Below are positions 1,328 through 25,351 of a DNA stretch of 44,558 nucleotides, one piece after another (the stretch's first letter is position 1; every line of letters begins with the position of its first letter). The stretch comes from a virus: IMG/VR virus record IMGVR_UViG_3300030012_001971, positions 1 through 44,558 of that record; one strand, written 5' to 3'. Below the pieces are notes generated by a model that worked only from the letters and a program-made list of their open reading frames with translations, had not been told where the DNA came from and searched no databases. The position numbers and the translations under genes were made by a program.

Positions 1328-2443
1328 ATGACTAAATCATTACATTCCCCAGTCCGTTACAGCCGCCTTGGTGCAGCTGCTAGATTCGCCTTTGAATCTG
1401 AAAGATTCCTCCTCCTTTATGGTCAGGTTGGAGTCGGTAAAACCGCAGCCGGTGCCGTGATTCATGAGGCCCTCACAGGCCGCACTGGTGACGGCAAGAT
1501 CAGCCACAATGAGTGGCGCAATGGTGAGAGCGGCTACGCCGTTGTCAACTGCACAGGCCAAAGTCCTGACTCGATTTCCGGTTTCTTGGTGCCTGATCAT
1601 GAGACCCGTGACGGGTGGTTTACCAAGCCTGAGCACTGGCCTCTTGAGTCCGTAGTAGGTGACGCCCACATCACCCTCTGCGTCGATGAGGTAGACAAGC
1701 TCTCAACTGACGCCGTGTCCGTCCTCCTAGGTCTCCTCGATGCCAATGATACGGGTGAGCTTTACCTCGGCACCCACAAGCTGGGGCCGAACGTGAATCT
1801 GTATTTCACGGCCAATGGAAAAGAGCACGGCTCCACATCCTCCAAGGTATTGCCAGCACCCCTGACTACCCGTTGCTATAGCCGGAGTTTGATTGCTGAT
1901 GTGGGTGCATGGTTTACAGGCTACGCTGCCCCCAAAGGGCTGGATTCCTCACCCGTCACAGCATGGCTAGCCAGCTACGGTGAAGAGTGGTTCTCACCCG
2001 TGATCGAAGGCCGCTGGGATGGTCGCAGCATTCCTTGCCCCCGTCAGTGGTCAGCCGCTGCCAAACTGGTCACCATCGATACCCCGTATGACGTGGCCGT
2101 GAATGACATTCTCTGGCCGCTGGTAGGTGAGGACGCAGCGAATGCCTGTGCCGCCTACATCCAGCTAATTCACAAGGTGAAGCCTGAGCTGGAGGCCCTC
2201 AAAAATGGTGGTGATTTGCCGTCAGATCACCGCGCCCAGTATGCCGTGATCTTCGCGGCCATCAGGACTATCGTTGTCGATTACCCTGATACAGGCGCAG
2301 CCATTCAGGCTGGTGATCTGGACTGGTTCGTCGACGCCTTAGTCAATGCCGATAATGAGATCAGGCAGTGGGCCGTGCCTCTTGCATCTGCCTCAGGAAT
2401 CCTCCTCAAATTCAGTGACAAAATCGACGCTCTCAAAGCATAA
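1328..2443 (+). CDS. MoxR-like AAA+ ATPase
   Basis: A 371-residue AAA+ ATPase. Walker A is GQVGVGKT (residues 32-39), Walker B is LCVDEVD (D120, E121), and a sensor-1-like YFTANGKEH follows. The short N-terminus before the P-loop and the order of motifs fit the MoxR/CobS branch of AAA+ proteins. These form rings that work with a VWA-domain partner to remodel or metallate target proteins. The matching VWA partner is encoded two genes downstream (3476-4933), a pairing seen in cobaltochelatase (CobS/CobT) and RavA/ViaA-type systems. The region after about residue 230 is helical and unassigned. Composition is G+C-rich like the rest of the cassette. The start is preceded by AACTGAATAC (1317-1326) rather than a Shine-Dalgarno site. 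Confidence 0.9.
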   Translation: MTKSLHSPVRYSRLGAAARFAFESERFLLLYGQVGVGKTAAGAVIHEALTGRTGDGKISHNEWRNGESGYAVVNCTGQSPDSISGFLVPDHETRDGWFTKPEHWPLESVVGDAHITLCVDEVDKLSTDAVSVLLGLLDANDTGELYLGTHKLGPNVNLYFTANGKEHGSTSSKVLPAPLTTRCYSRSLIADVGAWFTGYAAPKGLDSSPVTAWLASYGEEWFSPVIEGRWDGRSIPCPRQWSAAAKLVTIDTPYDVAVNDILWPLVGEDAANACAAYIQLIHKVKPELEALKNGGDLPSDHRAQYAVIFAAIRTIVVDYPDTGAAIQAGDLDWFVDALVNADNEIRQWAVPLASASGILLKFSDKIDALKA

Positions 2444-3475: not shown

Positions 3476-4933
3476 ATGAATACTACGATTGACTACAACC
3501 TGAACGGGGATGACACCCTCGCCAAGGCCCTTCGCCTTATCAGATCTTACTTCCCCCTCGCCTTCCAGAAATTGATCCTCCTGACATGGTCGTGGAGGAC
3601 TCAGGGAATCGGCAGCTACGGTGCCACTGATGGCCGCAACCTGTATCTTAATCCTGAAGGCTACGCCAAGATCGAGCGCACCTCCAACCCAGTTGGATAC
3701 CTTGCATTCCTCCTGATTCATGAAGCCTTACACGCTCTCCTGAATCATGCACTGAGACTGGGCAAGCTTAAAAAACATGGCCTTGCCAATGTCGCAGCTG
3801 ACTACGTGATCAATGCCATCATTGTTCGCATCAATGATCGAGTCTATGCTGAGGAGGGATTCGTTCCTTTCCCATTGATTGACGGCATTCTCCACGATAT
3901 CTCAATCGCTTACGACTCCAAGGGTGAGAGCCTCTCAGCAGAGCAGGTCTACCAGAACCTCAACAAGCCTGAGCCTGAGCAGCCTGAGCAGCCTGAGCCA
4001 CAGCCTGAGGAGGGTGACGAGTCCGGTGATGATGCAGTCGATCAGTCCGGTGATGAGGCAGGCGATGAGGCAGGCGATGAGGCAGGCGATCAGTCCGGCG
4101 AGTCCGGTGATGAGGCAGGCGATGAGGACGGCGAAGGGGCACCGTCAGGTAATGGAGATTCTGAGAATCCACTTACTGATGAGGACATTCTTGGTGGGGA
4201 TTTCGTAGGCACAGGCTCCGACGATCTTGCCGAGCCTGAGCTGGCTGAGGGTGAGACTCAGGAGGAAGTTGACCAGCAGATCGAGATCGAGAATGAGCAG
4301 ATCGAGATCGAGTCCAAGGCCAACCAAGAGAAGGGCATCGGCGGCACGTCAATCGAATTCGAAAATGCTCGCCGCAATCGTGACGGGGTGGTTGACTTTT
4401 CCGATACCCTCACCGACCTGCTCCGTCAGAATTATGACGGCGGCTGGAAGAAGCCATTCAACAATCAAATGTTCGAAGGCGGCGGCGTTGTCTGCCACGG
4501 CAGGGGCAACACTGAGGCAGGCGAGATTGCTTTTCTCGTTGATCTCTCCGGCTCCAACTACCACGAGGCAGGTGACATGATCAGCCGGACTCAGGAAGCT
4601 TTTGACTCAGTCAATCCTGAGGTGATCCACCTCGTAGGATTCGACCATCAGGTTCACGATCACATCGAGGTAACTGGTGGTGAGCGTCTCCCCTCCAGAC
4701 TCGACGGCGGCGGCGGCACCAACATCGCCAAGGCCCTAGCATGGGTCGAGGAGAACATCCCTCATGTCGAGGCCATCATCGTCCTCACTGACGGCTACGA
4801 TCACTGGAGCCGCATCGAACGCTACGAGCCGGAGCAGCCAGTCGTGTGGCTCAACTACGGCGAGGATCGCTGGCTCGAAGCATACGGTAACTACTACTCA
4901 TTCGGCGAGCGCATCGATGTCAACACCCTGTAA
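3476..4933 (+). CDS. Metallopeptidase-like / VWA-domain protein (DUF2201 type)
   Basis: A 485-residue, three-part protein. Residues about 1-150 form a zincin-like domain with HEALHALLNH (H82, E83, H86, H91), an intact HExxHxxxxH site. Residues about 160-290 form a very acidic low-complexity linker built of PE(Q), GDEAG and QIEIE runs. Residues about 310-485 form a von Willebrand A domain with a complete MIDAS metal site: DLSGS (D356, S358, S360), T415 in GGGGTN, and D439 in LTDG. This order (putative metallopeptidase, then VWA) is that of the DUF2201 family. The VWA domain and acidic linker also recall CobT, the partner of the MoxR-like CobS. With the upstream ATPase it likely forms an ATP-driven remodelling or proteolytic machine. 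Target unknown. It is encoded last in the G+C-rich cassette. Confidence 0.88.
   Translation: MNTTIDYNLNGDDTLAKALRLIRSYFPLAFQKLILLTWSWRTQGIGSYGATDGRNLYLNPEGYAKIERTSNPVGYLAFLLIHEALHALLNHALRLGKLKKHGLANVAADYVINAIIVRINDRVYAEEGFVPFPLIDGILHDISIAYDSKGESLSAEQVYQNLNKPEPEQPEQPEPQPEEGDESGDDAVDQSGDEAGDEAGDEAGDQSGESGDEAGDEDGEGAPSGNGDSENPLTDEDILGGDFVGTGSDDLAEPELAEGETQEEVDQQIEIENEQIEIESKANQEKGIGGTSIEFENARRNRDGVVDFSDTLTDLLRQNYDGGWKKPFNNQMFEGGGVVCHGRGNTEAGEIAFLVDLSGSNYHEAGDMISRTQEAFDSVNPEVIHLVGFDHQVHDHIEVTGGERLPSRLDGGGGTNIAKALAWVEENIPHVEAIIVLTDGYDHWSRIERYEPEQPVVWLNYGEDRWLEAYGNYYSFGERIDVNTL
3966..4140 (+). repeat. In-frame low-complexity repeat encoding the acidic linker
   Basis: Inside the VWA gene, CCTGAGCAG-type units encode Pro-Glu-Gln repeats up to about 4010. 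They are followed by GGCGATGAGGCA-type units encoding GDEAG/GDQSG repeats to about 4140. The near-identical DNA copies make the linker prone to slippage, so its length probably varies between related phages. An antisense open frame across this stretch is a by-product of the repeat. Confidence 0.8.
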
Positions 4934-4994: not shown

Positions 4995-5162
4995 ATGAAA
5001 ACGTTCCTTACAATTATCCTCGTCGCATTCTTCGCGGCATTCTTCCTCAACCTCGCATACCAAGTAGGAAAGCGAGACCAGCGCATCGAACACAAGCGCG
5101 AACAGGCAGCCCAGATCAAGGCTGATATCGAGCGCATGAATGAGTCATTCAACCGCCAGTAG
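4995..5162 (+). CDS. Small single-pass membrane protein
   Basis: A 55-residue protein starting MKTFLTIILVAFFAAFFLNL. Residues 3-21 are a clear transmembrane or uncleaved signal segment, followed by a charged, probably coiled-coil tail (about 26-55, rich in Arg, Glu and Gln). The ATG follows an AACTGAATAA box (4980-4989). The gene lies between the VWA gene and a short unknown gene, all on the plus strand. Function is unknown; a membrane-anchored accessory or superinfection-type protein is possible, but nothing in the sequence shows it. Confidence 0.65.
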   Translation: MKTFLTIILVAFFAAFFLNLAYQVGKRDQRIEHKREQAAQIKADIERMNESFNRQ

Positions 5163-5385: not shown

Positions 5386-6618
5386 ATGACTAGACAAGAA
5401 GCGACAACGGAAATGTATGGCCTCACACCCGATCAGCAGTGGTGTGACAACTCCAAGCTCATGCGCAAAATGATTTACGGATTCATTCAGCATGGATACC
5501 ACCCAGCATTTGAAAAGCTGGACAGGGAAAATTTGTATCAGAGACTCTTCCCAAAAACATACAACCTCGACGGCAAAAACTACGACCCCACCCTGCTGGG
5601 CGTAAGTTTATTTGAGACTATGTTTGCTACCGAACCGGATGTTTCAGATGTCACACAGGACATCGCTTATGATACGTGGAACACCATTGACCGTGAGCTG
5701 CACAGCTTTGACTGGAGGACATACTTCTTAGATGGAACATGTGCTGAGATGATTAACCGCAGCCATTACAATGACTCCGTGGACATGAGTGAAACTCTTT
5801 TCACCATGCCTGCGTTCACCGTGTCCCTGCCGAAGGGGATAGACATCACTGACTCCAAGGATAATGACCCCGTGATTGCCATCGCAGTGTGCCGATCATT
5901 CACAATTTGCCACACCAATTATTCGAAAGAGTTTCGAGCCGTCAGCGAACTGGACTTACAAAGATGGGGCATCCGTAAAGAGGATCTCAATAATCTAAAT
6001 AAGCTGGTCACCAAAGATGGGGAAGGTAGTTGGAAGCAGATCAGGGATAGCTGGACTGGGTTCTTCCAACAAAAGGGAAGGTTCCCTGACGGCGTGGAGC
6101 TGGCTCCTGTCCTCAACATAGGGGGCATTACAAAGAGCGGAGAGAACATGCCCATCCGGTTTCCTTTACTAGACATCTCTGCCAAGGATTGCCTCGACTT
6201 CCTGTATTCCCACGAGCTGGAACGCATGGATGGTAGTCACCCACTTAATGCGCGGAAAAATTTCCAAGGCAACCAAGCTGAGGAAAGTCTACGTGAGGCT
6301 CGCCAGTTAACTGAGTTCACACTAAAGCTCTTACTGTTCATGGCCGCCAAACCTCAGGAGGTGGAGACCAACAGCAGATTGTTGAAGCCTGCAAGGGTGA
6401 GGCGTGGCAAGCTGATGAACGATAACAAATGGTCACCGTGCTACATCGGCCGCAAGTATGGAGCCGAGATGAAATCAAAAGGCTACGGCGAGCGCGGTAA
6501 GATTCGTGCCCATTGGAGGCAGGGACATTTCCGTGGGGTGTGGGCAGGCAAGGGCCGATCAAAACATTTGATTAAATGGATTGACCCCTGCTATGTTAAC
6601 GATCCAGATAAGGGGTAA
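5386..6618 (+). CDS. AcrVA2-like protein (putative counter-defence)
   Basis: A 410-residue protein. The C-terminus has IRAHWRQGHFRGVW (residues 373-386), then GKGRSK and KWIDPCYVN. The anti-CRISPR AcrVA2 of Moraxella ends, as I remember it, with a block of the same spacing: HIRRGHWHGYW, GTGQAK and RWQPAVFVN. Two weaker segments also seem to correspond: TMPAFTVSLPKGIDI with its Leu-Pro/Asp-rich strand, and an FTLKLLLFMAAKPQEVE helix shortly before the C-terminal block. AcrVA2 lowers Cas12a levels by triggering loss of its mRNA during translation. Homologues are widespread in mobile elements, many in hosts without Cas12a, so the target here may differ. This protein is about 90 residues longer than AcrVA2 and carries extra N-terminal sequence. 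A hairpin (6625-6692) follows the gene. Confidence 0.72.
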   Translation: MTRQEATTEMYGLTPDQQWCDNSKLMRKMIYGFIQHGYHPAFEKLDRENLYQRLFPKTYNLDGKNYDPTLLGVSLFETMFATEPDVSDVTQDIAYDTWNTIDRELHSFDWRTYFLDGTCAEMINRSHYNDSVDMSETLFTMPAFTVSLPKGIDITDSKDNDPVIAIAVCRSFTICHTNYSKEFRAVSELDLQRWGIRKEDLNNLNKLVTKDGEGSWKQIRDSWTGFFQQKGRFPDGVELAPVLNIGGITKSGENMPIRFPLLDISAKDCLDFLYSHELERMDGSHPLNARKNFQGNQAEESLREARQLTEFTLKLLLFMAAKPQEVETNSRLLKPARVRRGKLMNDNKWSPCYIGRKYGAEMKSKGYGERGKIRAHWRQGHFRGVWAGKGRSKHLIKWIDPCYVNDPDKG

Positions 6619-7983: not shown

Positions 7984-8161
7984 AAAAATAAAATTGAATC
8001 CGATGCAGAGAATTCTGCTAAATGATTATCGTCACCAACAGAGGAGGAGGCTGCATAAAACACAAGTTTGTTTAGAGTTTGCTACTTACTGTCCTCGCAC
8101 TAAGCAATGGCACGATAAAGCAATTAACAGAAATGAAATCATTATTCCCAAAACAATCTGA
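7976..8161 (+). CDS. Small basic hypothetical protein
   Basis: A 61-residue basic protein (RHQQRRRLHKTQ near residues 18-29) following, and overlapping by 8 nt, a very acidic one. I chose the ATG at 7976 rather than the one at 7952, which lies further inside the upstream gene. Its 3' end overlaps the helicase start by 29 nt. No family is recognised. Because it overlaps both neighbours it could be spurious, but the alternative is a gap of about 150 nt in an otherwise gapless operon. Confidence 0.45.
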   Translation: MNKKIKLNPMQRILLNDYRHQQRRRLHKTQVCLEFATYCPRTKQWHDKAINRNEIIIPKTI

Positions 8162-9503
8162 GGCATTTGATTTCTTTGTTGGCAACCTACTCAATGGTCA
8201 GAATACTTTGGACTCCTCACAGATGGGGACAGGTAAGACTGTAGTTGGGGCACGGGTAGCTAAAGAAGTATTGGAGCGTGGGCCTTTTGACAGTGTCGCA
8301 GTGATATGCCCCAAGGCTGTGTTCCCTACGTGGGAAGCAGAATTAAAAGAGTGTGGGATCGAGCCAACCTTTATACTGAATGTTGAGAAGCTGCGTAGGG
8401 GAACCACCCCATACGTCAACAAGGTGGGTAAGAAGAACTTCCGTTGGGTGGTTGGCAACAACACTCTCATCCTGATAGATGAGATACACAAACTCAAAGG
8501 GCCGTGGACACAGAACGCCAACCTGTTGATCGCCCTCGTTAAGCAGGGTTACAGGATTCATGGTATGAGTGGAACCCCGTGTGAATCTCCGATGGAGATG
8601 AGGCCGTTGGGTTACATGCTGCGGTTGCACAGCAATGACATGTCCCGTGGTGGAAAGCCCAGCTACTTCCAATGGATGCACAGACTAAAGTGCAAGCGCG
8701 GTCACTGGGGTGGGTATGAAATGGTAGACCCTGTCTTTGCTTTACACAAAATGAGGGAGACAATGTATGGTGTTAACACGCACGGTCTCACAGTGGCTGA
8801 CTTCCCTGATTCATTCAGAGATAACCGAGTGCTGGTAGATCCGATTGAGTTTAGCAACAACGCTAAGATCGTTAAGTCCTACAAGAAACTCAACATGAAT
8901 GCTGCCGACATAAAGCAGTATATCGAAGACGGCACTTTGTCTGATGATATGAAAAGCAGAGAGGAAGAAGATGACGAACCAATCATCGTTAAGATTCTTC
9001 GGGCACGACAGGAATGTGAGATACTCAAAATAAAAGACATTGCACCCATGGCACAAGACGCCGTGGAAGAAGGATACAATGTGGTTATCTTTCTCAACTT
9101 CACAGAAAGTTTACGGGAGTTGTCTTCCATGCTGGGTTGCGAATACATTGATGGGTCTACCCCAGCAGATCTGCGCACTGAATACATAGACTCATTCCAG
9201 CGAGATGAGACGAACTTACTTGTCATCAATGCTGCCACGGGAGGCACTGGTATCTCGCTTCACGATACTTTGGGTAACAGACCCAGACTATCTTTGATTT
9301 CACCTAGCTTCAACGCCAAGGAATTTGCTCAAGTGATTGGTCGGATACACAGGAATGGAGCTAAGTCTGACGCACTACAGAAGGTGCTACTTTCACACGG
9401 CTCGATTGAAGAGTATGTGATGGAAGCGATTAATAAGAAACTAGACAACATGAATATTATTCACCACTCGCGCCCATGCGAACTGAATACAACACACTAC
9501 TAA
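8133..9503 (+). CDS. SNF2/SF2-type DNA helicase (ATPase)
   Basis: A 456-residue superfamily 2 ATPase. Using the ATG at 8133: Walker A SSQMGTGKT (K35), motif II DEIH (116-119), motif III MSGTP, a second RecA-like lobe with VIFLNF and ATGGTGISLHD (motif V), and QVIGRIHR (400-407, motif VI with its arginine finger). The FPKQSEAFDF start resembles the Q-motif region, and the overall form is that of compact phage SNF2-like helicases. Such proteins usually remodel forks or assist recombination and repair. An ATG at 8079 would add 18 residues of unconvincing sequence and deepen overlap with the upstream gene, so 8133 is preferred. It lies in an early-type operon, away from the polymerase and primase. 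Confidence 0.9.
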   Translation: MKSLFPKQSEAFDFFVGNLLNGQNTLDSSQMGTGKTVVGARVAKEVLERGPFDSVAVICPKAVFPTWEAELKECGIEPTFILNVEKLRRGTTPYVNKVGKKNFRWVVGNNTLILIDEIHKLKGPWTQNANLLIALVKQGYRIHGMSGTPCESPMEMRPLGYMLRLHSNDMSRGGKPSYFQWMHRLKCKRGHWGGYEMVDPVFALHKMRETMYGVNTHGLTVADFPDSFRDNRVLVDPIEFSNNAKIVKSYKKLNMNAADIKQYIEDGTLSDDMKSREEEDDEPIIVKILRARQECEILKIKDIAPMAQDAVEEGYNVVIFLNFTESLRELSSMLGCEYIDGSTPADLRTEYIDSFQRDETNLLVINAATGGTGISLHDTLGNRPRLSLISPSFNAKEFAQVIGRIHRNGAKSDALQKVLLSHGSIEEYVMEAINKKLDNMNIIHHSRPCELNTTHY

Positions 9504-10794: not shown

Positions 10795-13700
10795 TTAATC
10801 TTCTAATGGAATATACCTATCGTATTTGTTTCCGTAGTTAAAGAACTTACGGGATCGTTGTCTCCCAACAGGGGTTGTCTTTAACCTGTCTTCTATGAAT
10901 TTAGATAAGACAGGGCGGTTCATCCAACCGTTGTAGTTCAACGTTAATCTTTCTTTGCTAACTCCACGCGACTTCGCCTGTGCTGAGATCTCATTCCAAC
11001 TTATTCCTAAATTGTTGTAAGCTCTCATGATCCGACGGAACTCATTGTTCATACTCAATCGAGTGGTGTAGATGTTATCGTAGATATCGAATATATCACT
11101 ATCCAGCATACTGGACTTCGTACTCAGCAAAGCATTTTGTTTGGAGTTTATTTCCCGATAATCTTCTGTGTGAGTTCTAAGATAATTTCTAAGTGAGCTA
11201 TTGAGATCTAGCTTGTGTGGTTTGACTGGAAGGAATTCACTGAAGATAACTCCTAATGGGCTAGTGAACATATCGTTCGAAGGATTATCTCCTTCGATTG
11301 ATCGATAAGCCTGCCGAAGTTTTGCTAACGCTCTAGGTTCATATGCTTTCTCCCAAATGTATTTGAAACCCCTGAGCACGTTCTTAGGCACATCATCTCC
11401 ATACAGGATCTTATCACCGTACTGGTTTTTATTTGAAATAACATCTGACACAGCACCAGATAATATCTGCTCGTTGAAGTATGGCCTAAATAAACCAGTG
11501 ACTAATTCTATTCCTGCATCAAGTGGGTTTATCTCGCCCTCATCGAACAGTGCTTCAAAAGATCTAGCTACTGGGTCAGCGATAACTGAGAAGGGGTTGA
11601 GATACGTAAGATCTAATGACCATACATCCCCGTCCTTTTCTTTGAGATAGTAGAAGGTGTGATCTCTCAAGTAGAAAGGCATACCCAATCTCAAAGCTTC
11701 ATCCTCATCTTCACCTATGCCAGCTAAGAGTTTGAGGAATGCTGGAACTGCGAACGTGAAGGACATTGTCCCGATCATGCCCGATAGCCTTTTCCTGTAT
11801 CGTGCTCTCATGACGGGGTTTGTTTTCCCCTGTCTTTTTTCTTCCCTAATCAAAGAGAAAGTATTCGCAGTAACTCTGGGGATCTCTGCCGCAAACCTGA
11901 CATACGGAGCGACGAGCAATCCGACTGGGTGACGGGTAAGAGCTTTGATTACTGGAGGTGCTTGACTATAAGACTGAGATACTTTCTTAACTTTGAGAGC
12001 CGCCGCTCTCTTCATATCTACTGAAGGATTGCCATCCGCGTCTAGCAGTCTCGCGAACTCTCCACCTGCTGGGTCAGCTTTGGCCGCCCTTAACAGTGTG
12101 TCTAATTCAAACTCATACAACCCGATCTTGTAGTAAGCATCCATCGCAGAAGCAAGTCTAGTAGCCATGCCCACTGCGCTATCGTAAGCTTTATTCCCTA
12201 CCTTTACTACGCCCTCTACCTTCTTCGCTATTTTAGCAAGTTGAGATTCTGCATCAGGTATGGTCATTTTTCCGGTTAACAAATCCCTTAGGAGGTTAGC
12301 TTCTAGTTCATCTCCGAATACATTCATCGAAGCTAATACCGTAAGCTCTGCATCCATAGCTGCCCTAGACCCCATTGCGGCCCTGACTATCATGGATTTA
12401 CTACCTTCTGCATCGCCCAGTAATGCCTTGCTCACACCACTTACTTCTCCAAAGGCTTTACCAACTCCACCTACATAACCCTGCATCGGGCCAAAGAACA
12501 TCGCATTACCTAACATGTTACGGACATAGAATCCCGGTGAACCAAGAGTCTTGGACGCCAAAGATAAACCAGTTCCCCTATGGAGATACCCAAGTAATTT
12601 ACTGGCGACATACAAAGCTGGGTTGCTTGTCTCTTTGCTGACAACCTCTGCCTTGGACATGTTGATTAGGTCATCAAACTCCTTAACGATTTCTGGTCTG
12701 GTGTAATAGCCTTTGAGTGGGTTCCAATCTGTTGGCCCTCCATCACCTTTAAGTTTTTGCCAGCCTGTATATTTTTGCTGAGACACTGGAAGATCTAAAT
12801 CTTCTTCAATCATCTCTGCTGTAACCAGCCAAGGCTTGTTACCCTTAGTCCCATACTCAACAATTCTGTTAAAGAAGGCTTGGTTAGCCATGACCGTAGA
12901 GGTATGGACAAGAGTGTGAGCTAAGTTGCCAGCCGCCGACTCATCTCCAAACTCCCCAAGCAATCTTCTAATAGGTGATGGGATGTTCTGCTTCTGGTTA
13001 AGATTCTTGGCGAGTGCATTGAGGACGCTACCTTTGAACTTCTTCTCGTTCATCATTATGCTGCGCCCACCATCTGCTGATTGATAGATATCTAGCTCCT
13101 TGGTAATTGCATTCTTCTCATACGCATTAAGGAACTCAGTCATCAAGTCCTTGCCTTTCGTTCTGGCAGAAGATCCTTTCTCTTCTAAGTCTAACTGCAC
13201 ATTGAATCGTGCATCCTTTTTACTGAGTCCTTTCTCCATCTCCCTTGCCACATGGTAATCCATGTATTGCTTGGCGAAGTAGTTGATGGCGTCCTGTCTT
13301 TCTTGAGCATAGGTAGGATCTGTTTCATCACGAACCCTAGCTAAGTAATCATTGTCCTCAAACATACGATACCTCCTCGTGATGTAGAGGCCGCCGTTCA
13401 TGTCGAACACAGCGTTGAACTCATCCTTACCTTGGATGAAATCACTAAACAATTCGTTGCCCTTGGCAGATAGATCATCGATCAACTTACGTAAGTTGAG
13501 GATCATCTTGTGTGCCTCCGGTGAGATAGCTACGAGATCTTTTAATGCCTGATCTCTATCGGCAAGTAACACCTTTCTATTTTCTAGGCGCAGATTCTTG
13601 GCGTTTTGTAATTTGTTTTTCTCAGCAATTTCCAGCAGTAGTGCTCGCCTCTTGGGGTCGGTTGCTCTGTTGGCCTTGGCTCTCTCTTTATTGAATCGAG

Positions 13701-16700
13701 CTTCGACATTATCTATTTGTTCATCAGTTAACTGCGTCCCTTGATTTGATCCAGACGCACGAGAAATAAGTTCCGGTGGTATCTCTATTCCGTTCTTCTC
13801 TGCGTCTTTGATTAACCTGTCATGCTCTTGTTTAAAATCTTCAGCGAGTTTCTTGGCTTCCCTAACAAAGGAATCACGCTCTTCTTTCAGACGTATTAAG
13901 TCACGGTCAGCGTAACCTTTGACTAACTTCTTGAATATACTAGACGGAGATTTGTACGTCCCAAACTCCATGAGTGGGATGTCCAGCATCTCTACCCAGT
14001 TGCTGAAGTCTACTGACGCAGCGTCTATCTCCTTGGGTATATAGGAGTTCGCACCGTAGCGCGATTGTAACCTTGGGGTTACTGTTCCTTCTGTGTCCGA
14101 CGCGGTCTGGAGAAACCTCTCCCTCCTATCGCGAACTTTCTGCTGAATATCGGGTGTGAGTCGGGGGCTGAGGGAAAGTATCCCCTCCCCTTCTTTATCG
14201 GCGTCCCAGTCGTGGAATCCGTATTCTCCGACTGTTGTGATTTCTTCAAAGGTTGCTTGTTCTTCATATCTTTCTGCTAGCTTAGTTGTGAACGTATCGT
14301 CTGTCAACTCAGGGAGCATATCTTTATAGTCGATCTTAAAGTTGATCACAGTAATTTGGTTACTGTCTATTTTTGTGAACCCTAAGTCTGGGTGTATATC
14401 ACCCAAGGTGTCTTGTATCTCTTGTTCTTTTTCTGCGGTTAGGTCTTCGTCGAAAGTAAGAATAAATCCGTGTGACTGTTCGTTACCTGCGACATAAGTT
14501 AAAATAGATTTGTTGGCAAACTCTTCGGCAGCTGACTGAGCATTGCTATCTGCATCTCTGACAACCCTTGCTTCATCCCAACCATCTTCGAAGATTCCGT
14601 CTTCATCTTGATGCTCGTTCCTTAAAGTGTCCTCGTCTGGTTTAAAGACAGGAATCTCTTCCATCTTATTGGTTTCCTTACTCTTTAATTTGTAAGGCTT
14701 GCCTTTTGAATTAAGGATCTGATAACCCCCATCAACTTTGACAACTTGAGGTGTGTCAATGGTAGCATTCTTTTCTTGGGAAAACTTTATTGCTTCTTCT
14801 TGAGTTGCAAACTTGCCACCTTTTTGAACTGCCTTGTCACCTTTAAGAACTCTGTAGTGAACATCTTGTTTGTTCTTCTTAACGTACCTCACCCACGGCA
14901 CAGCATCTTGCATGAAGATATACTGTAGTGATCTGGCATAAGCGCGGATCGCGTCATCATCGTAATCACCTGCTGGTTTGTTAGGGTAAAGGGTGGACAA
15001 TACATTCGGAGTAACCCCACCAGCGTAACCACCCATAGACATTCTAGCTGTAGATATTGCTATGCCTAAATCTCTAGCAAGAGTATCCTCACCAGTAACA
15101 GGATCTACAATAAGTTGCATAGCCTGCTGAGTGAATGACCTCTTCTGCTCAGGAGTCATAGCCGCAAGTTTTTTACCTATTGGTGTTTGCTCAGACGCAA
15201 TAACTTCCCACGTTGCCGTGAGTCCCATTGAATTAACGAAGTAATCAAACGAGCGAGATGCTTCGATAAAGTCTACTCCTTCTGCGGCGAGTGCGTTCTT
15301 TGTCCACCTGAGTTGATGTTTACGCTCACCCTCTTTGCTTGTAAACTTTCTGATCTTCTTACCTTTAGGATAAATTAATTTAAGATCTCCTGCTCTTATA
15401 CTCTGAGCTTCAGTCTTTTCTTTAACATCTTTATCTTCTGACCTAGCTTTAATTGCTGTCCAAAGCATAGCCTGTATCTGGTGTGCTTGGAAAGGAGCAG
15501 CTTCGGGTGCTCTGTTTTGGTTGAGAGCATATGCAAGTCTGTTGATTAGTTTCTCAGAAAACCCAAACGCACCCTGTCCTTTATCATCCGTAAGACCAAT
15601 GGTGTCATATCCCATGGCTCTGTAAACCCACATGTCTACAGTTACTGGCTGCTGAATATCGTTAAGGAACTCTGTGTCTATCTGCATCGAAGCTAACTCC
15701 TCAGGAGATGCTTTCGAAACCAAGTGGAACATTAAGTTCTTGTAGAAGTTGTCTGTCTTACGCCCCTTCCAAGGTGCTTTATCATACAGAACTGCCCTCG
15801 CTTTATCATCCTGCACTTTGGTTTTAACTTTAAGACCTGCGCGAGAAACTCCATTTGCGTGTTGCTCGTAAGCACGGACAGCAAAGTAAGTATTAACTTC
15901 AACACCTGTCTGTGGTGAGTAGATAGCGAGAAGGGCAGTAAATTTTTCTGCTTCTACTAGGTCTCCATTAGTAATCTCTAGGATCTTGTCGGCAGCATCT
16001 TCATACCAGAATCTACCTACAGCTCCTTCTATGGTCAGTTGCTTGAGCCTGTCCATTAACTTCTCTACTCCCTTGTCTGATTTAACTTGGGGAGGAGCAC
16101 CTTTGATCTTGCCACCCTTGGTCTTGAATAAATCGAACTCGCTTGGGAAAGAGTCTACATCAAAGTCAGATAACTTCAGGTCTGTGTCAGAGCCAACCCT
16201 TGATTGTAGTCTCGTAGTATCCTCGTCATCTCGTGGAGTAATAGACTGATGCATCTCCAACTGTCTGAGGATTTGGTTAAGACCTCCCTCAGGGTTGCTG
16301 ATATCAAAGTGCATACCATTAGGAGTAAGCCTGTAGCCTGCTTCCATAGCTCGCACCTCAGCCACTACTCTGTTAACTGCATCCCTCATTTCAGGGGACA
16401 CGTCTTTAAGTTTTCTAGCGTATGTTACCTTGGTAAGGTAAGTCTTGAAATACTCCTTAACGGTATCAAGTGTGGTTGGATTCTCTAACAAGAAGTTAAC
16501 CTGCTCGTTAGTCTCAGTGCCTCGTAATACTTTTTGTACGTGGATTCGAAGTTGTTCTTCTGCCAGAATAAACCTTTCAGCTTCACTGACAGCAGCATCC
16601 TCACTCCTAAACCTTTCTAAAGCTTCTGCTCTCTCACCCTCTGGGTAATACTGTTCGATGATACTCTGTGCATCAACGTCATTCAGACTTGCCATTAAGT

Positions 16701-19700
16701 TTTGTATCTCCTCTTGCGATAAGCGAGCGAACGAAGCAACGTGTGCAATCTCTTCGTTAAGAATCGCAGCTAAAATATGATCTCTTCTGATTGGTGCGCC
16801 ATCTACTTCTGCCACCATTTGATTTACTTTTGCCGCAGCCCTTCTTCCATTGAAGACAATAGACTCTGTCTCGGCATCCCACTCAGCAATAACGTCAGTG
16901 GTATTATCCATGACTACATTGATTTCATCGGGAACATAATCGACTACGAAAGCGAAGTATTCTACAGCAGCATTATCGAGGGCTTCGTTGACATTAATGT
17001 CTTCAGCCATTCCAATACTAGTCGCCAATCTTGATCGACTGATCTGCCTGCGGTTTACAGTTGCTGCAACATGGTTCGTGAATCCTGTTCTTGATTCAGG
17101 ATCAGGGAAGTTACGCTTACCTACAAGTGTGAGGACATCCTGCATTGCTTTATCAGCTTTAGCTTGTGCCCTACCAGCTCTTGCAATTAACCTAGATATG
17201 GCAGCAATCGCGCGAGTTAAAAAACTTCTTTGTCCGTCCCCTACTTTCATGCCACTCAAGAAAGATTGGAAGTCTTGAGATGTCATTATAGCAGCCGAAA
17301 ATTCTTCTATGTTTGTTAGACCGTAAAGAACGGAGTCGGGTGCGTTCTCTCTAGTGGCCCTCTTCCTCAACAACTTTATCAACGATTCAACTCTGTTGAT
17401 TGCGTTGTTCTGCTCAGGTGTTCTAGCTTCGGCAGGAAGATCAATGACACGGTTAGTAAACGCGTGTGATAATTCATGAACTAGAGTTTGAGCTACGCCA
17501 CCCTCTGCGTCTCTTGCAAGATTGATGACGATATTTGTTACACCATTTCTATCCGTGTAAGTTTTACCTGCGTAGTTCGCAGCAGTTGCCTCAAAAGAAA
17601 ACTTAATCTTCCTGATAAAGGACGTGTCCGTTAAGAACACTTCAGCTGCGGCACCTAAAGGACTCAAAGGAGATTTCTTGTTTTTGAAAGTGGTTAGCTT
17701 TTCGAGCGCGTTAATAACTCCTTCTGGGCTATTGTCCGTGATACCTAGTCCTTCCAAGTGTGTACGGTTAATAGCTTCGTTTATGTCCATTGACCTACCA
17801 TTAACAATAGCCCGTTGATGGTTAGCCTCTTGAGATTTAGATATGTCGGTATAGAAAGTAACTACTTGATCGTCTGTAACGGTGTAGTCAGCACCAGCTA
17901 TTTGCTGTAGGTCTGTCTTAAATTCTTGTAAGAAGAAAGCATCATTCTCAATGGTCGCATCTACGTTAGGATTCATCAGGCTAAACGTCCTGAAAACCTT
18001 GCGAACTGTCTGGCCTTGTTCACCATACAACCCACGCTTTAAGTCTGACTGTAAATCAACAAGAGGGCGGTTGTTTCTAAATGCACCTTTGGAAGCAAAC
18101 TGAATAAGTTCGTCAAACAATTCGTCTGGCTCTAAGTCAAAAGCTCTGCCAGCCTCATTGTGATATTCCTTGTCGACTATCGCAGCTACTTTAGCAGTCA
18201 ATTCGGTACTGCCTTTCATAGCTTCCACCCCCTCTTCAATCAATGTCTCACCATAGTCTTTTACTTTTCTCGTTGGCAGGGGTGGTAATGGGTTAGGCTT
18301 AGGTGCTACGTAAGTATCTTGTGCCACCGCAGCAACATTGGTGTCTTGGTAAAGATCGCTGTTTGGATCTAGCACACTGACAAAACTTCTAGTGGCTCTC
18401 TTCTTTCTAGCAATCTGCTGGCCCATTGCATACTTACCCTGTCTTCTCAAGACCGCAGAAGCGTTGAATGGGGTCGGGTCTACCTCTGCATTAGCAGAAA
18501 TATTTTGGGCATACTCAAGAACAGAGATCTGCATCTCAAGGCTGGCAGCTATATTTGCCGTTTCCTTAAATGCTTTAGACATTCCTTTATAGAAGCTGTC
18601 CGTAGCATAAATGTTCTCGAAGATATTGGTGAACGTATTGAAGTCTTTTACTCTATCGTAAATAGTAGACAGCTTAATGCTCTTTGTTCTAGTGTTAAAC
18701 GGGTTAACAACTTTGAGATCCTCAAGTTGATTGAGGTTAACATTTTGTTTCAGCTCGTTAAGTCGGCTCGCAAGATTAGCAATAACAGAGTAGTCTTCTT
18801 CCAGCGCACCAACTTTGTTGAACGCTGTCTTTGCTGATACTGTGCCTCCTGATTCCTGAACCCTGATGTCTGTAACATAACGCTGGCCCGTTCCAGTCGA
18901 GAGTTCGAAAGAAGGATTAATAGTCCCACTATCTATAGCGGTGGAAGGTACAGGAATCGCGATGCCACTCTCCAAGAAAGTGAGCATGGCTACAGGATCG
19001 TTATTAAATATACCCCTACCTTTATCGTCTAAGAAAACTTTGCCCTGACCTCCGTAAACCTTAGGCATTGAACTAGCCTTCTTGGTGAATGCGTCTGTCT
19101 GAACAGGATACTTTTCTTGAATTCTCTTCTTCAGTTCCTTAGTCAAGGTGTTCAATGACGCCCTGTCCATTTTGTCAGTAGCGACACCCAGACGTTCCAA
19201 CTGATCCACAGTAAGTTGATGCGCAAAACCTGCGTTAACCAAAGGGTCTATTCCTGAGGCTTTTATTCCTCTCTGTTGTGCTTTAATTTTTCTCTGTTGT
19301 GCTTCAAACTTTGCTACTTCACTACCAACCAAAGGTTGGTCACTATGTCCCTCAGTTAATTTAAAGGTACCGTTTTCCTCCTCTTTGATATTCTGTGACG
19401 TATTTTCGGGAGCACCTACTTTTCTTACTCTAGCAGCACGAAGCCCTCTTTTCTTGTCCTCTTTATACTCAATAAAAATTGCAGTATACGGGGCACCTTC
19501 ACGGTCGTAATAAGTCACCTTATCACCTTTTTTGAACTGCCCTCTCTTTGAAAATTGTTGCTCTAATGTTAGCTCAGTACGAGTATCAACTCCCTTGGCA
19601 TCTGACTCAGCTTGCTTTGCTAAGTTTGCATCGAGAGTTTCCTTTGCTTTCATCCGCATGAAAGCCGCTTTCTTCTTTGAGAAAGCACGGTTCTCATTTT

Positions 19701-22700
19701 CAGCAAGCTTGAGTTCTCTAGTAGCTCTAACAGCAGGGTTACCTGTTAAGGCCATGATACGCTTTTCCATTTTTTGATGGAGCTTCCTCTTCGCATCTAT
19801 GGATAGAAGCGTGGCCTCGTAGTCTTGTTTGTAGTCTGGGTTTATTTTCTTAGCTGGGTGCTCAGAAGTAATTGCAACACTACCAGCTACAGCTTGTCCT
19901 TCCGAATCAGCTAACGCCTGTTCAGCGGCAGTTCCTTCTATTTCAGGGTTGTTACCCTGTTGAAGGTTCTGCGCCTGCATGTTTGATATCTCCGCTTCGA
20001 TGGCCTCGCTAGTTACCTCTGTCTGCAAAAGATAGTTAATCTCATCTAAATCTTCTTGAGTTAGTTCTTGGGTTTCTTCCTCAATAACTACATCTGCCTC
20101 GCCTACTACATCTTCTTCTTCGTCAATTGGCGCAGAAGATAAACGCGCCTCCATTTGTGGACGCTCTGATCTTTTGTATTGCCTTACTTGTCTCTCCGCT
20201 TCTTGTGCTGTGGCAGGAGATCCTGCTTCCCTTAGTTGATCGCCAAGTCCTTGAGCCTCTACGTCAGCTTCGAACTGTTTAAATACTTCTTGCTCCACTC
20301 GTGCAGCAGCGGCTCTGTCTAAAAATTTATCGGGAGCAATATTTTTAGCGGCCTTGCTAACAACATTACCTCCTCCACCTAATGCAGCACCTATGAGGAA
20401 TCCATGCCAAACTTGCTGTATCCTATCTAGCATCCCCGTGTCTTGGTTCGTGTAGACATCCTGAACTATGATGTTGAAGAACTCGTCTAGTCCTTCTTCA
20501 AATCCTTCGTCCAATGCCGACCTTGCAAACTTCTTGGGGGCTTCCATCAATGCGTGTTTGCGCGTCACTTTCTTGAGTGAGTTCTTAATTAACGCTTTGA
20601 AAGTTTCGTCGCCTACGTTACGGCCAAGAACATTAGACGTGATCTGCCTCATCTGTCGGAAGCTCATCCCTTGAAGAAAGGCATCTTCCAAACCACCCCT
20701 CCCAAGAACTGAGAAAGAGGACGTTAGTAAACCAGTTATTGTTCCTGCTGTTAGGGCAGATCCAAATGCTTTATCGTGCGATTCTTGTTTTACCCTTTCT
20801 TCGCTCCACCCTTCTTCCCATTGTCCGTCTTCCCCTTTATGCTTACTGGTTAAGTCATCGGATACTGTTTTAAATACTGCACCATAAGTATTAGCACCTG
20901 ACCTAGTAGCGGCAGGAATAAATGCAGCGGTTCCAACTCCAAGCTTCGAAGCGATGTTGCCGTTGTATGCTTTGACAACGGCGAGAGTTCTTTCTTTGGT
21001 GGCACCTTTTAAGGCACCTGCTTTTAAAATTCTTTCGGCTGCTTGCTCGGCAGTTTCTTTACCGACTGTCTTTAGCATACCCCTAGAAGCTGCGGATATA
21101 ACAGCTCTAGCAGAAGCCGTAGCTGTTGATTTTGCCCCAGTGTAAGCAGCCAATCCAGCTAAACTGGTGCCAGCAGTGGGCTTAGTTACAAGAACAAGAC
21201 CAGCTGTAACAAGGGCATCTGCAAATAGTGGAGCAATAGCTTCCGCTAGATCTTGTTCGCCGCCCATTTCTAAGCCAAACACTTTAGCTATTTCTCTGTC
21301 GTGCGCGTTGTCTTCCGCAATTTGAAGTAATCCTTCGCGCCCCCAGTCAGTGTCCATGGCAGCACCTATTCCATAAGCAATAGACGTTGCTCCTTCCCAC
21401 ACACTACTTAGTACCCCTTTAGCTCTGTGTAGTATTGGGCTGAAATCAAATTCAGCTCTAAATTTTTCTAGGATCTTAGAGTTGCTTAGACCTCTCTGCT
21501 TTCCTTCAATAAGTGCGTCTCCCCACTCCTCAGAAAACGCATCGTCTTTACTTAAAAGACCAGATATCCTTTCGAAGTTATCTACTACGGCTAGTTCTCT
21601 TTGAGCATTTGCTTGGGCTGCTTCGGCTTCAGTTACGTTAGCTTGTCTTAAAGCTCTGTTAAAATCAGAAGGAGATAGCATAAGTTCGTTAGCAACGAGA
21701 ACCCCACTGTATCTTGTCTGGTATACGTTCTGCCCCAACTCCTCTTCGTTATCAGTATACTTGAGAAATGGTTTAACGTTTTCTTTAGAGTCTCCTTCGA
21801 ACGCATACTTGACTATTAGCTCACTGACTACGTCTTCCAACACTTCTGAACTAAATCCAGTAGCTTCGGACAATTCTCCTATGAGCCTGAGTTTAGCTAC
21901 ATCAGTCCTTTCTTGATAATAGTCTTGGAGAGTTTTTTTATTACTCTCCGCTATAAGTTCGTCACGTTCCTCATCATCCCCCACCAAATCATTCCATCCT
22001 ATGCGGAATGTACGCACGATATCGCTGAACCCATCGGTCGCCCAATCGTTAAGCTTATCACCAGCATCCCAAGTTGCATTCTCCCCATAGTTTTTAGCCA
22101 GCCCATATAGGGCCGCTTTGTTTGCTGGGTCAATGTTCTCAATAACTTCTCTTACCTCAGCTTCTGCCAGAAGTCTTTGATCAACTTCATATCTCTTGAG
22201 ACCTTTGCCTTGCGGATGTTCTTCTCTCTTGTAGCGTAAATTAAATAAATGCTTCGGAGTTACCCCATACTTAGCAGATTCCCTAATAACGTCTGACTCA
22301 GTCATTCCTTCGGGAATGTTTCCCCCTAAGAAAAACTCGTTTCCTTCTTCGTCTTCAATGACTGCTGCAAGCAGCTCTCCCTTTTTAAACTTATCTGTAA
22401 ATTTCTTTTGGTTTGTTCTACGAACAATCTCAGATAGTTCTACAGCTTGATCTGGATCAATATCGAACGGCGATGCATCTTCATCTAAGTCTTGCGCAGT
22501 AGCGTATAAGTTGATCTTCTGCCTATCTTCCTCAGACAAGTATTGATTCTCAGTGTCTTCTTCATCGAGAAGTGTTTTTATTGAAGAGCCTAAATCTGGC
22601 TTAGAGTAAGAGCTAAGTATGTCCTCAATTTCTTGTGAGTTGTCCTCAGTAAGTATTCCTTCCTCACTTAAAACTTGACTGAGGTTATAATTGATTTGGC

Positions 22701-22863
22701 TCTCTATTGTTTCATCATACTTGCCTGCTGCTAAGTATTCATTTCTGACATTTTCAGTATACCTTCCGTAACTTTCGAGAGGGTTATCGTAAGGGTTTTC
22801 AATAGACCAATCTTGATAGGTCGTTTCAACGAAGGGTGCGTTTAGGTTGCTTGGGTCTGACAT
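10795..22863 (-). CDS. Giant phage polyvalent protein (4,022 residues), likely ejected with DNA
   Basis: The largest gene, about 27% of the window. Parts in order: acidic N-terminus (1-230); Ala/Gly-rich hydrophobic helices (about 545-600) that could insert in membranes; acidic linker (about 950-1000); a short SH3-like strand block near 1108 (KKGDKVTYYDREG); a zincin-type HELSHAF (H1796, E1797, H1800); a related NEEIAH at 2036-2041 in which the first His is Glu; an SPQTGVE block at 2316-2319 in a domain that recurs in other phage polyvalent proteins; coiled coil (about 2970-3090); C-terminal membrane-active-looking segments (about 3430-3470 and 3695-3713). RLQSR-[VY]-G occurs at 2218 and 2931. 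Multi-domain giants of this kind are injected into the cell, where their domains protect or process phage DNA. No vRNAP motif of the N4 type was found. Two virion-type genes lie upstream. Confidence 0.85.
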   Translation of the reverse strand: MSDPSNLNAPFVETTYQDWSIENPYDNPLESYGRYTENVRNEYLAAGKYDETIESQINYNLSQVLSEEGILTEDNSQEIEDILSSYSKPDLGSSIKTLLDEEDTENQYLSEEDRQKINLYATAQDLDEDASPFDIDPDQAVELSEIVRRTNQKKFTDKFKKGELLAAVIEDEEGNEFFLGGNIPEGMTESDVIRESAKYGVTPKHLFNLRYKREEHPQGKGLKRYEVDQRLLAEAEVREVIENIDPANKAALYGLAKNYGENATWDAGDKLNDWATDGFSDIVRTFRIGWNDLVGDDEERDELIAESNKKTLQDYYQERTDVAKLRLIGELSEATGFSSEVLEDVVSELIVKYAFEGDSKENVKPFLKYTDNEEELGQNVYQTRYSGVLVANELMLSPSDFNRALRQANVTEAEAAQANAQRELAVVDNFERISGLLSKDDAFSEEWGDALIEGKQRGLSNSKILEKFRAEFDFSPILHRAKGVLSSVWEGATSIAYGIGAAMDTDWGREGLLQIAEDNAHDREIAKVFGLEMGGEQDLAEAIAPLFADALVTAGLVLVTKPTAGTSLAGLAAYTGAKSTATASARAVISAASRGMLKTVGKETAEQAAERILKAGALKGATKERTLAVVKAYNGNIASKLGVGTAAFIPAATRSGANTYGAVFKTVSDDLTSKHKGEDGQWEEGWSEERVKQESHDKAFGSALTAGTITGLLTSSFSVLGRGGLEDAFLQGMSFRQMRQITSNVLGRNVGDETFKALIKNSLKKVTRKHALMEAPKKFARSALDEGFEEGLDEFFNIIVQDVYTNQDTGMLDRIQQVWHGFLIGAALGGGGNVVSKAAKNIAPDKFLDRAAAARVEQEVFKQFEADVEAQGLGDQLREAGSPATAQEAERQVRQYKRSERPQMEARLSSAPIDEEEDVVGEADVVIEEETQELTQEDLDEINYLLQTEVTSEAIEAEISNMQAQNLQQGNNPEIEGTAAEQALADSEGQAVAGSVAITSEHPAKKINPDYKQDYEATLLSIDAKRKLHQKMEKRIMALTGNPAVRATRELKLAENENRAFSKKKAAFMRMKAKETLDANLAKQAESDAKGVDTRTELTLEQQFSKRGQFKKGDKVTYYDREGAPYTAIFIEYKEDKKRGLRAARVRKVGAPENTSQNIKEEENGTFKLTEGHSDQPLVGSEVAKFEAQQRKIKAQQRGIKASGIDPLVNAGFAHQLTVDQLERLGVATDKMDRASLNTLTKELKKRIQEKYPVQTDAFTKKASSMPKVYGGQGKVFLDDKGRGIFNNDPVAMLTFLESGIAIPVPSTAIDSGTINPSFELSTGTGQRYVTDIRVQESGGTVSAKTAFNKVGALEEDYSVIANLASRLNELKQNVNLNQLEDLKVVNPFNTRTKSIKLSTIYDRVKDFNTFTNIFENIYATDSFYKGMSKAFKETANIAASLEMQISVLEYAQNISANAEVDPTPFNASAVLRRQGKYAMGQQIARKKRATRSFVSVLDPNSDLYQDTNVAAVAQDTYVAPKPNPLPPLPTRKVKDYGETLIEEGVEAMKGSTELTAKVAAIVDKEYHNEAGRAFDLEPDELFDELIQFASKGAFRNNRPLVDLQSDLKRGLYGEQGQTVRKVFRTFSLMNPNVDATIENDAFFLQEFKTDLQQIAGADYTVTDDQVVTFYTDISKSQEANHQRAIVNGRSMDINEAINRTHLEGLGITDNSPEGVINALEKLTTFKNKKSPLSPLGAAAEVFLTDTSFIRKIKFSFEATAANYAGKTYTDRNGVTNIVINLARDAEGGVAQTLVHELSHAFTNRVIDLPAEARTPEQNNAINRVESLIKLLRKRATRENAPDSVLYGLTNIEEFSAAIMTSQDFQSFLSGMKVGDGQRSFLTRAIAAISRLIARAGRAQAKADKAMQDVLTLVGKRNFPDPESRTGFTNHVAATVNRRQISRSRLATSIGMAEDINVNEALDNAAVEYFAFVVDYVPDEINVVMDNTTDVIAEWDAETESIVFNGRRAAAKVNQMVAEVDGAPIRRDHILAAILNEEIAHVASFARLSQEEIQNLMASLNDVDAQSIIEQYYPEGERAEALERFRSEDAAVSEAERFILAEEQLRIHVQKVLRGTETNEQVNFLLENPTTLDTVKEYFKTYLTKVTYARKLKDVSPEMRDAVNRVVAEVRAMEAGYRLTPNGMHFDISNPEGGLNQILRQLEMHQSITPRDDEDTTRLQSRVGSDTDLKLSDFDVDSFPSEFDLFKTKGGKIKGAPPQVKSDKGVEKLMDRLKQLTIEGAVGRFWYEDAADKILEITNGDLVEAEKFTALLAIYSPQTGVEVNTYFAVRAYEQHANGVSRAGLKVKTKVQDDKARAVLYDKAPWKGRKTDNFYKNLMFHLVSKASPEELASMQIDTEFLNDIQQPVTVDMWVYRAMGYDTIGLTDDKGQGAFGFSEKLINRLAYALNQNRAPEAAPFQAHQIQAMLWTAIKARSEDKDVKEKTEAQSIRAGDLKLIYPKGKKIRKFTSKEGERKHQLRWTKNALAAEGVDFIEASRSFDYFVNSMGLTATWEVIASEQTPIGKKLAAMTPEQKRSFTQQAMQLIVDPVTGEDTLARDLGIAISTARMSMGGYAGGVTPNVLSTLYPNKPAGDYDDDAIRAYARSLQYIFMQDAVPWVRYVKKNKQDVHYRVLKGDKAVQKGGKFATQEEAIKFSQEKNATIDTPQVVKVDGGYQILNSKGKPYKLKSKETNKMEEIPVFKPDEDTLRNEHQDEDGIFEDGWDEARVVRDADSNAQSAAEEFANKSILTYVAGNEQSHGFILTFDEDLTAEKEQEIQDTLGDIHPDLGFTKIDSNQITVINFKIDYKDMLPELTDDTFTTKLAERYEEQATFEEITTVGEYGFHDWDADKEGEGILSLSPRLTPDIQQKVRDRRERFLQTASDTEGTVTPRLQSRYGANSYIPKEIDAASVDFSNWVEMLDIPLMEFGTYKSPSSIFKKLVKGYADRDLIRLKEERDSFVREAKKLAEDFKQEHDRLIKDAEKNGIEIPPELISRASGSNQGTQLTDEQIDNVEARFNKERAKANRATDPKRRALLLEIAEKNKLQNAKNLRLENRKVLLADRDQALKDLVAISPEAHKMILNLRKLIDDLSAKGNELFSDFIQGKDEFNAVFDMNGGLYITRRYRMFEDNDYLARVRDETDPTYAQERQDAINYFAKQYMDYHVAREMEKGLSKKDARFNVQLDLEEKGSSARTKGKDLMTEFLNAYEKNAITKELDIYQSADGGRSIMMNEKKFKGSVLNALAKNLNQKQNIPSPIRRLLGEFGDESAAGNLAHTLVHTSTVMANQAFFNRIVEYGTKGNKPWLVTAEMIEEDLDLPVSQQKYTGWQKLKGDGGPTDWNPLKGYYTRPEIVKEFDDLINMSKAEVVSKETSNPALYVASKLLGYLHRGTGLSLASKTLGSPGFYVRNMLGNAMFFGPMQGYVGGVGKAFGEVSGVSKALLGDAEGSKSMIVRAAMGSRAAMDAELTVLASMNVFGDELEANLLRDLLTGKMTIPDAESQLAKIAKKVEGVVKVGNKAYDSAVGMATRLASAMDAYYKIGLYEFELDTLLRAAKADPAGGEFARLLDADGNPSVDMKRAAALKVKKVSQSYSQAPPVIKALTRHPVGLLVAPYVRFAAEIPRVTANTFSLIREEKRQGKTNPVMRARYRKRLSGMIGTMSFTFAVPAFLKLLAGIGEDEDEALRLGMPFYLRDHTFYYLKEKDGDVWSLDLTYLNPFSVIADPVARSFEALFDEGEINPLDAGIELVTGLFRPYFNEQILSGAVSDVISNKNQYGDKILYGDDVPKNVLRGFKYIWEKAYEPRALAKLRQAYRSIEGDNPSNDMFTSPLGVIFSEFLPVKPHKLDLNSSLRNYLRTHTEDYREINSKQNALLSTKSSMLDSDIFDIYDNIYTTRLSMNNEFRRIMRAYNNLGISWNEISAQAKSRGVSKERLTLNYNGWMNRPVLSKFIEDRLKTTPVGRQRSRKFFNYGNKYDRYIPLED

Positions 22864-25322: not shown

Positions 25323-25351
25323 ATTATACAATTTGAATTAAAAAAAGTCAA
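25323..25351 (-). promoter_or_regulatory. Consensus promoter giving a probably leaderless mRNA
   Basis: On the minus strand TTGACT (25346-25351) is separated by exactly 17 nt from a perfect TATAAT (25323-25328). The ATG of the 440-residue protein begins at 25315, only 7 nt past the -10 box, which is where transcription itself should start. The -35 box overlaps the terminase stop codon. It would drive the structural genes from 25315 down to 10502. Confidence 0.85.

Follow-up and report, generated by a model that had tools for sequence, protein, structure and literature searches.

AcrVA2 of Moraxella bovoculi is reported to recognize the N-terminus of nascent Cas12a and to bring about a translation-dependent loss of the mRNA, with the degrading machinery as yet unidentified (PMC13131331, a review; PMC12908700, a meeting report). 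It has been reported as the first prokaryotic protein to couple nascent-chain recognition to mRNA loss (PMC13131331). Homologues of AcrVA2 have been described in two phyla, where RefSeq shows no Aca gene beside them (PMC6739104). Huge phages encode them as well (PMC7162821), and so does the Shewanella phage vB_SbaS_Y11, in which ORF43 is annotated as 'AcrVA2' (WIF21996.1, PMC10846135). A preliminary description of the DNA analyzed here proposed an AcrVA2-like gene outside the usual Moraxella context. The setting is indeed outside Moraxella, but this alone is not new, given the three reports on homologues; what our analysis appears to add to them is a phage subfamily that is both distinct and divergent, with a reliable structural model, and a wider extent of the superfamily.

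The window, by which we mean the whole 44,558-nucleotide stretch analyzed, is the 44.6-kb virus record IMGVR_UViG_3300030012_001971, an uncultivated marine phage. The open reading frame at 5386-6618 is a genuine gene; its coordinates were confirmed and its reading frame is open. The features of the locus are collected in Table 1, and the product of this gene is referred to below as the window protein.

Table 1. Features in the window, with positions, strand and the evidence for each
Feature	Position	Strand	Evidence or remark
AcrVA2-superfamily gene (phrog_6160), 410 aa	5386..6618	+	PHROG and family profiles, AlphaFold2 model, Foldseek
N-terminal helical segments, residues 5-47, mostly missing in the majority of family members	5398..5526	+	alignment occupancy, model
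Clade-specific insertion, residues 182-201	5929..5988	+	alignment
Region aligned to the AcrVA2 group, residues 264-410	6175..6615	+	profile-profile (hhalign 98.0%, E 2.8e-13)
Conserved basic module HxRxGHxR...GxGR...WIxPxxVN, residues 373-405	6502..6600	+	predicted beta-strands; conservation in part a consequence of fetching loci by the motif
MoxR-like AAA ATPase	1328..2443	+	context
DUF2201 putative metallopeptidase plus VWA-like protein	3476..4933	+	context
55-aa ORF, hydrophobic at its N-terminus; fits tightly between VWA gene and 71-aa ORF	4995..5162	+	sequence reading
71-aa ORF whose end lies 4 bases ahead of the AcrVA2-like start; also precedes the gene in L002	5166..5381	+	conservation in L002
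Helicase (ResIII plus Helicase_C), downstream, syntenic in relatives	8079..9503	+	context
4022-aa ORF	10795..22863	-	
Terminase	25348..27135	-	

No family in Pfam, NCBIfam or PADLOC matched the window protein. PHROG_6160, annotated as being of unknown function, matched residues 296-405 (E 1.6e-9); all 13 members tested matched this PHROG, and so did the Shewanella 'AcrVA2' and Moraxella osloensis proteins. When the window protein alone was searched against all PDB sequences with phmmer, AcrVA2 (7ci1) was the only match listed, and it fell on the same C-terminal block that the preliminary description had named; the pairwise similarity was not significant (E 0.21), and a profile of the window protein and its phage orthologue in L002 brought no gain (E 0.24). 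Relatives were gathered from phage and plasmid records, from IMG/VR and from one genome per species. A 64-member profile from which AcrVA2-type rows had been removed matched AcrVA2 at E 2.1e-4 over chain residues 12-318, near its full length, with the next PDB match at 0.29. A 97-member AcrVA2-free profile matched five of six held-out AcrVA2-type proteins at E values from 1.3e-4 to 8e-15 and the sixth, from a Dickeya phage, at 0.035, while the best of the reversed and shuffled decoys reached only E 420. The preliminary description had named a profile search beforehand as a check on its proposal; in a profile-profile comparison of the window clade with the AcrVA2 group, the match indeed lay within the last ~147 residues (Table 1).

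The C-terminal block of the window protein (373-IRAHWRQGHFRGVWAGKGRSKHLIKWIDPCYVN-405) and its counterpart in AcrVA2 (KRPHIRRGHWHGYWQGTGQAKEFRVRWQPAVFVN, chain residues 284-317) carry H-x-R-x-G-H, G-x-G, W and V-N in register, with the same order and spacing. This bears out the claim that the block matches the end of AcrVA2, with which the profiles and hhalign agree. Three elements of the proposed motif are not exact: AcrVA2 reads K-R-P-H where the window protein reads I-R-A-H, GTG in place of GKG, and W-Q-P-A in place of W-I-D-P.

An AlphaFold2 model calculated with a 64-row alignment had a mean pLDDT of 88.1 and a pTM of 0.90. In a Foldseek search of this model against 350,542 PDB chains, only AcrVA2 (7ci1_B) was significant (E 1.9e-6, probability 1.00), in line with the structural comparison that the preliminary description had called for. 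MHC-class-I-like matches ranking after it were discarded as noise (probability of 0.10 or less, TM about 0.16). Twelve viral proteins whose annotation is unknown or doubtful likewise matched the model. The superposition on 7ci1_B was loose overall (TM 0.50 by target, rmsd 10.5 A), and the domain arrangement thus differs from that of AcrVA2. The predicted structure thus places the AcrVA2 fold in the window protein as well as in AcrVA2 (PDB 7ci1/7ci2). A chance match to a short basic motif, with which the weak single-sequence and two-sequence E values would be compatible, is very improbable and was rejected on the fold match, the more so as held-out proteins were matched with clean decoys, the hhalign alignment (E 2.8e-13) extends over 147 residues, the motif in loose form occurred in 0 of 200,000 shuffles of the window protein, and AcrVA2 was the sole significant structural match. 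By sequence profile and fold, the window protein is a remote homologue of AcrVA2.

Conservation is unevenly distributed along the window protein. Its best-conserved region is the C-terminal module (H376, R378, G380, H381, R383, G388, W398, P401 and V404), where the pattern H-x-R-x-G-H ... G ... W ... V-N occupies residues 376-405. Among 13 members, 11 of which had been found by plain tblastn without a motif pattern, H376, R378, G388 and V404 were invariant and H381 almost invariant; in most of the fetched loci, conservation of the module is partly by construction, because that motif was used to find them. The last 80 residues are strongly basic (pI 10.6). Between the window protein and its relatives L002 and L015, identity was 66-71% over residues 301-410 and 36-44% over residues 1-110 and 181-300. 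The window protein was described as about 90 residues longer than AcrVA2 owing to an extra N-terminus; the length difference stands (410 versus about 323 residues), but it is spread over N-terminal helical segments at residues 5-22 and 32-47 and the insertion at 182-201.

In a phylogenetic tree, the window protein (P0001) grouped with L002, L015, L016 and L198 in a clade with support of 100/97, which forms a separate branch of phrog_6160, whereas AcrVA2, the Shewanella Y11 protein and the M. osloensis protein formed a clade of their own (97/95) with the window protein outside it. The window clade was weakly sister to the wider AcrVA2-containing group (80/83), and a forced clade of AcrVA2 plus the window protein was not rejected by the AU test (p-AU 0.236). 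Identity to M. bovoculi AcrVA2 is below 20%. The Shewanella ORF43 protein resembles the window protein in its PHROG, its C-terminal module and its being phage-encoded but, unlike it, is closely related to AcrVA2 (E 1.5e-72 to 7ci1); tblastn of the window protein against Y11 gave E 0.8.

Members of the superfamily, as delimited by phrog_6160, occur in phages, on plasmids and in genomes that bear the labels of eleven phyla: Cyanobacteriota, Pseudomonadota, Bacteroidota, Bacillota, Chloroflexota, Verrucomicrobiota, Lentisphaerota, Ignavibacteriota, Thermodesulfobacteriota, Saccharibacteria and Acidobacteriota, some of which labels may be wrong because many of the records are MAGs. It is rare and patchy (2/246 Flavobacteriales genomes). 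The genomic neighbours of its members are mixed, without a recurrent partner; resolvases are the commonest, with occasional defence genes. Serine-recombinase-type resolvase genes recur beside members, including L133, L134, L137, L143 and L146 (one cluster comprises 11 loci, and 5 of the neighbours scanned match Pfam Resolvase), which suggests mobile cargo, and a solo gene with mixed neighbours is as expected for such cargo.

Two plasmid settings were observed besides these. On pTHIMO01 of Thioflavicoccus mobilis (L007/L235, L235:13476-14519), a superfamily gene with an overlapping start follows brxL and a 114-aa ORF, so that this copy lies inside a defence locus, the plasmid's BREX operon. A general link to BREX was considered and dropped, as no BREX gene was among the top 25 neighbour families listed for the other loci. 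On two Nostoc plasmids (L008, L232), the AcrVA2-like gene overlaps at both ends with its neighbours, an HNH endonuclease gene upstream and a DUF262 gene downstream; these may form a conserved three-gene unit.

In the window, the gene order runs from the MoxR-like ATPase through the DUF2201/VWA gene and two small ORFs to the AcrVA2-like gene, followed by small ORFs, the helicase and a DUF1599 protein. Of the two phage orthologues that are 50-52% identical to the window protein, that in L002 (51%) has the same gene order, and that in L196 (52%) has it as far as the contig extends, with some inserted genes. More distant copies, at 26-29% identity, were found on two phage contigs of otherwise different gene content (L016/L197 and L198). 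Among records with a related terminase, many of them fragments, the AcrVA2-like gene was present in only 1 of 45, and it is accessory in its phage clade. The preliminary description placed the gene in a counter-defence island because of the adjoining MoxR cassette. We see no sign of a defence cassette in the MoxR/VWA pair: both the ATPase and the DUF2201/VWA protein match general phage families, and their order is kept in the relative. For the VWA part, matches include Acinetobacter phages such as Presley, which are N4-like phages. No other acr gene was recognized near the AcrVA2-like gene, and promoter-like sites were not above chance (11 found, 12.8 expected).

IMG/VR holds more than 300 relatives of the terminase, of which the 80 retained show 76-100% identity, but none of 50,697 isolate phage records matched it; by these relatives, the phage belongs to a common uncultivated phage clade. 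The 4022-aa ORF takes up over a quarter of the window and shares 65% identity, over part of its length, with a 1965-aa ORF in L002. For host prediction, the terminase, DNA polymerase, helicase and VWA proteins were compared with isolate phages and gave no close relative; no tRNA was found in the window, and Rfam gave no match.

We then considered Cas12a as the target. Of 49 genomes that carry a member of the wider family, none had a full-length Cas12a above the curated cut-off (0/49); one carrier, a Bacteroidetes genome, held a 51-residue Cas12a N-terminal fragment, and this match lies directly beside a cas1 match (L226 / G069:C40:29107-29764). Applied to 246 Flavobacteriales genomes, the same search recovered one with a full Cas12a, confirming that it works. 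Matches to cas1 were present in 32/49 carriers, but this count, having no taxon-matched background, carries no weight here. The lack of full Cas12a among the carriers makes it unlikely as a general target of the superfamily and suggests that the target of the window protein itself is probably not Cas12a either. That the window protein is a true anti-CRISPR, silencing Cas12a in the host of this phage as AcrVA2 does in Moraxella, would fit the shared homology and fold, the sister position of the window clade and the joint clade that the AU test retained; we consider it improbable, however, in view of the AcrVA2 clade that excludes the window protein, the carrier counts with a positive search control, the absence of a second recognized acr gene nearby, and a host prediction that gave no close relative. 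The proposal of Cas12a as target is not upheld by these results.

Collectively, we favor, with a probability of roughly 0.5, a reading in which the window protein is an early phage factor that would recognize a nascent host polypeptide and cause loss of its mRNA, the target probably not being Cas12a specifically. As a divergent member of the AcrVA2 superfamily and an accessory, presumably early, gene product, it would most likely act co-translationally, by homology with AcrVA2. The variable N-terminal and middle region may bind the nascent polypeptide at the ribosome, and the basic C-terminal module (H376, R378, G380, H381, R383, G388, W398 and V404) may couple this recognition to mRNA loss, so that the target would no longer be made; this division into a variable reader and a conserved effector region is inferred from the homology with AcrVA2. 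A host defence protein or another antiphage protein is the probable target. Sequence homology, fold, modular conservation, the solo gene and the mechanism reported for AcrVA2 argue for AcrVA2-like action; the identity below 20%, a recognition region that is the least conserved part and the loose superposition argue against it.

An alternative is a homologous fold with a different job, in which the protein would be an RNA- or ribosome-binding takeover factor, or a nuclease, acting on host translation without reading any single nascent peptide. The contrast between the conserved C-terminal module and the variable region before it, the basic tail, and the spread of the family over varied phages, plasmids and chromosomes with no constant partner are all consistent with such a role. 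However, AcrVA2, the only characterized member, is selective for one gene product (PMC13131331), and the H-R-H pattern alone does not count as evidence for catalysis; we regard this alternative as possible but doubtful.

Extending the favored reading of a co-translational silencer to the family, we tentatively suggest that AcrVA2 may be a single branch within a large superfamily of mobile silencers that act co-translationally, each of which would read a different nascent polypeptide and destroy its mRNA via the shared C-terminal module, the window subfamily being aimed at a non-CRISPR host target. A superfamily spread over phages, plasmids and genomes of eleven labelled phyla, mostly where Cas12a is absent, would offer natural variants with which to map the recognition and effector parts, and it would point to a mechanism that reaches beyond CRISPR. 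Both questions can be tested directly, given the conserved residues and the reliable model.
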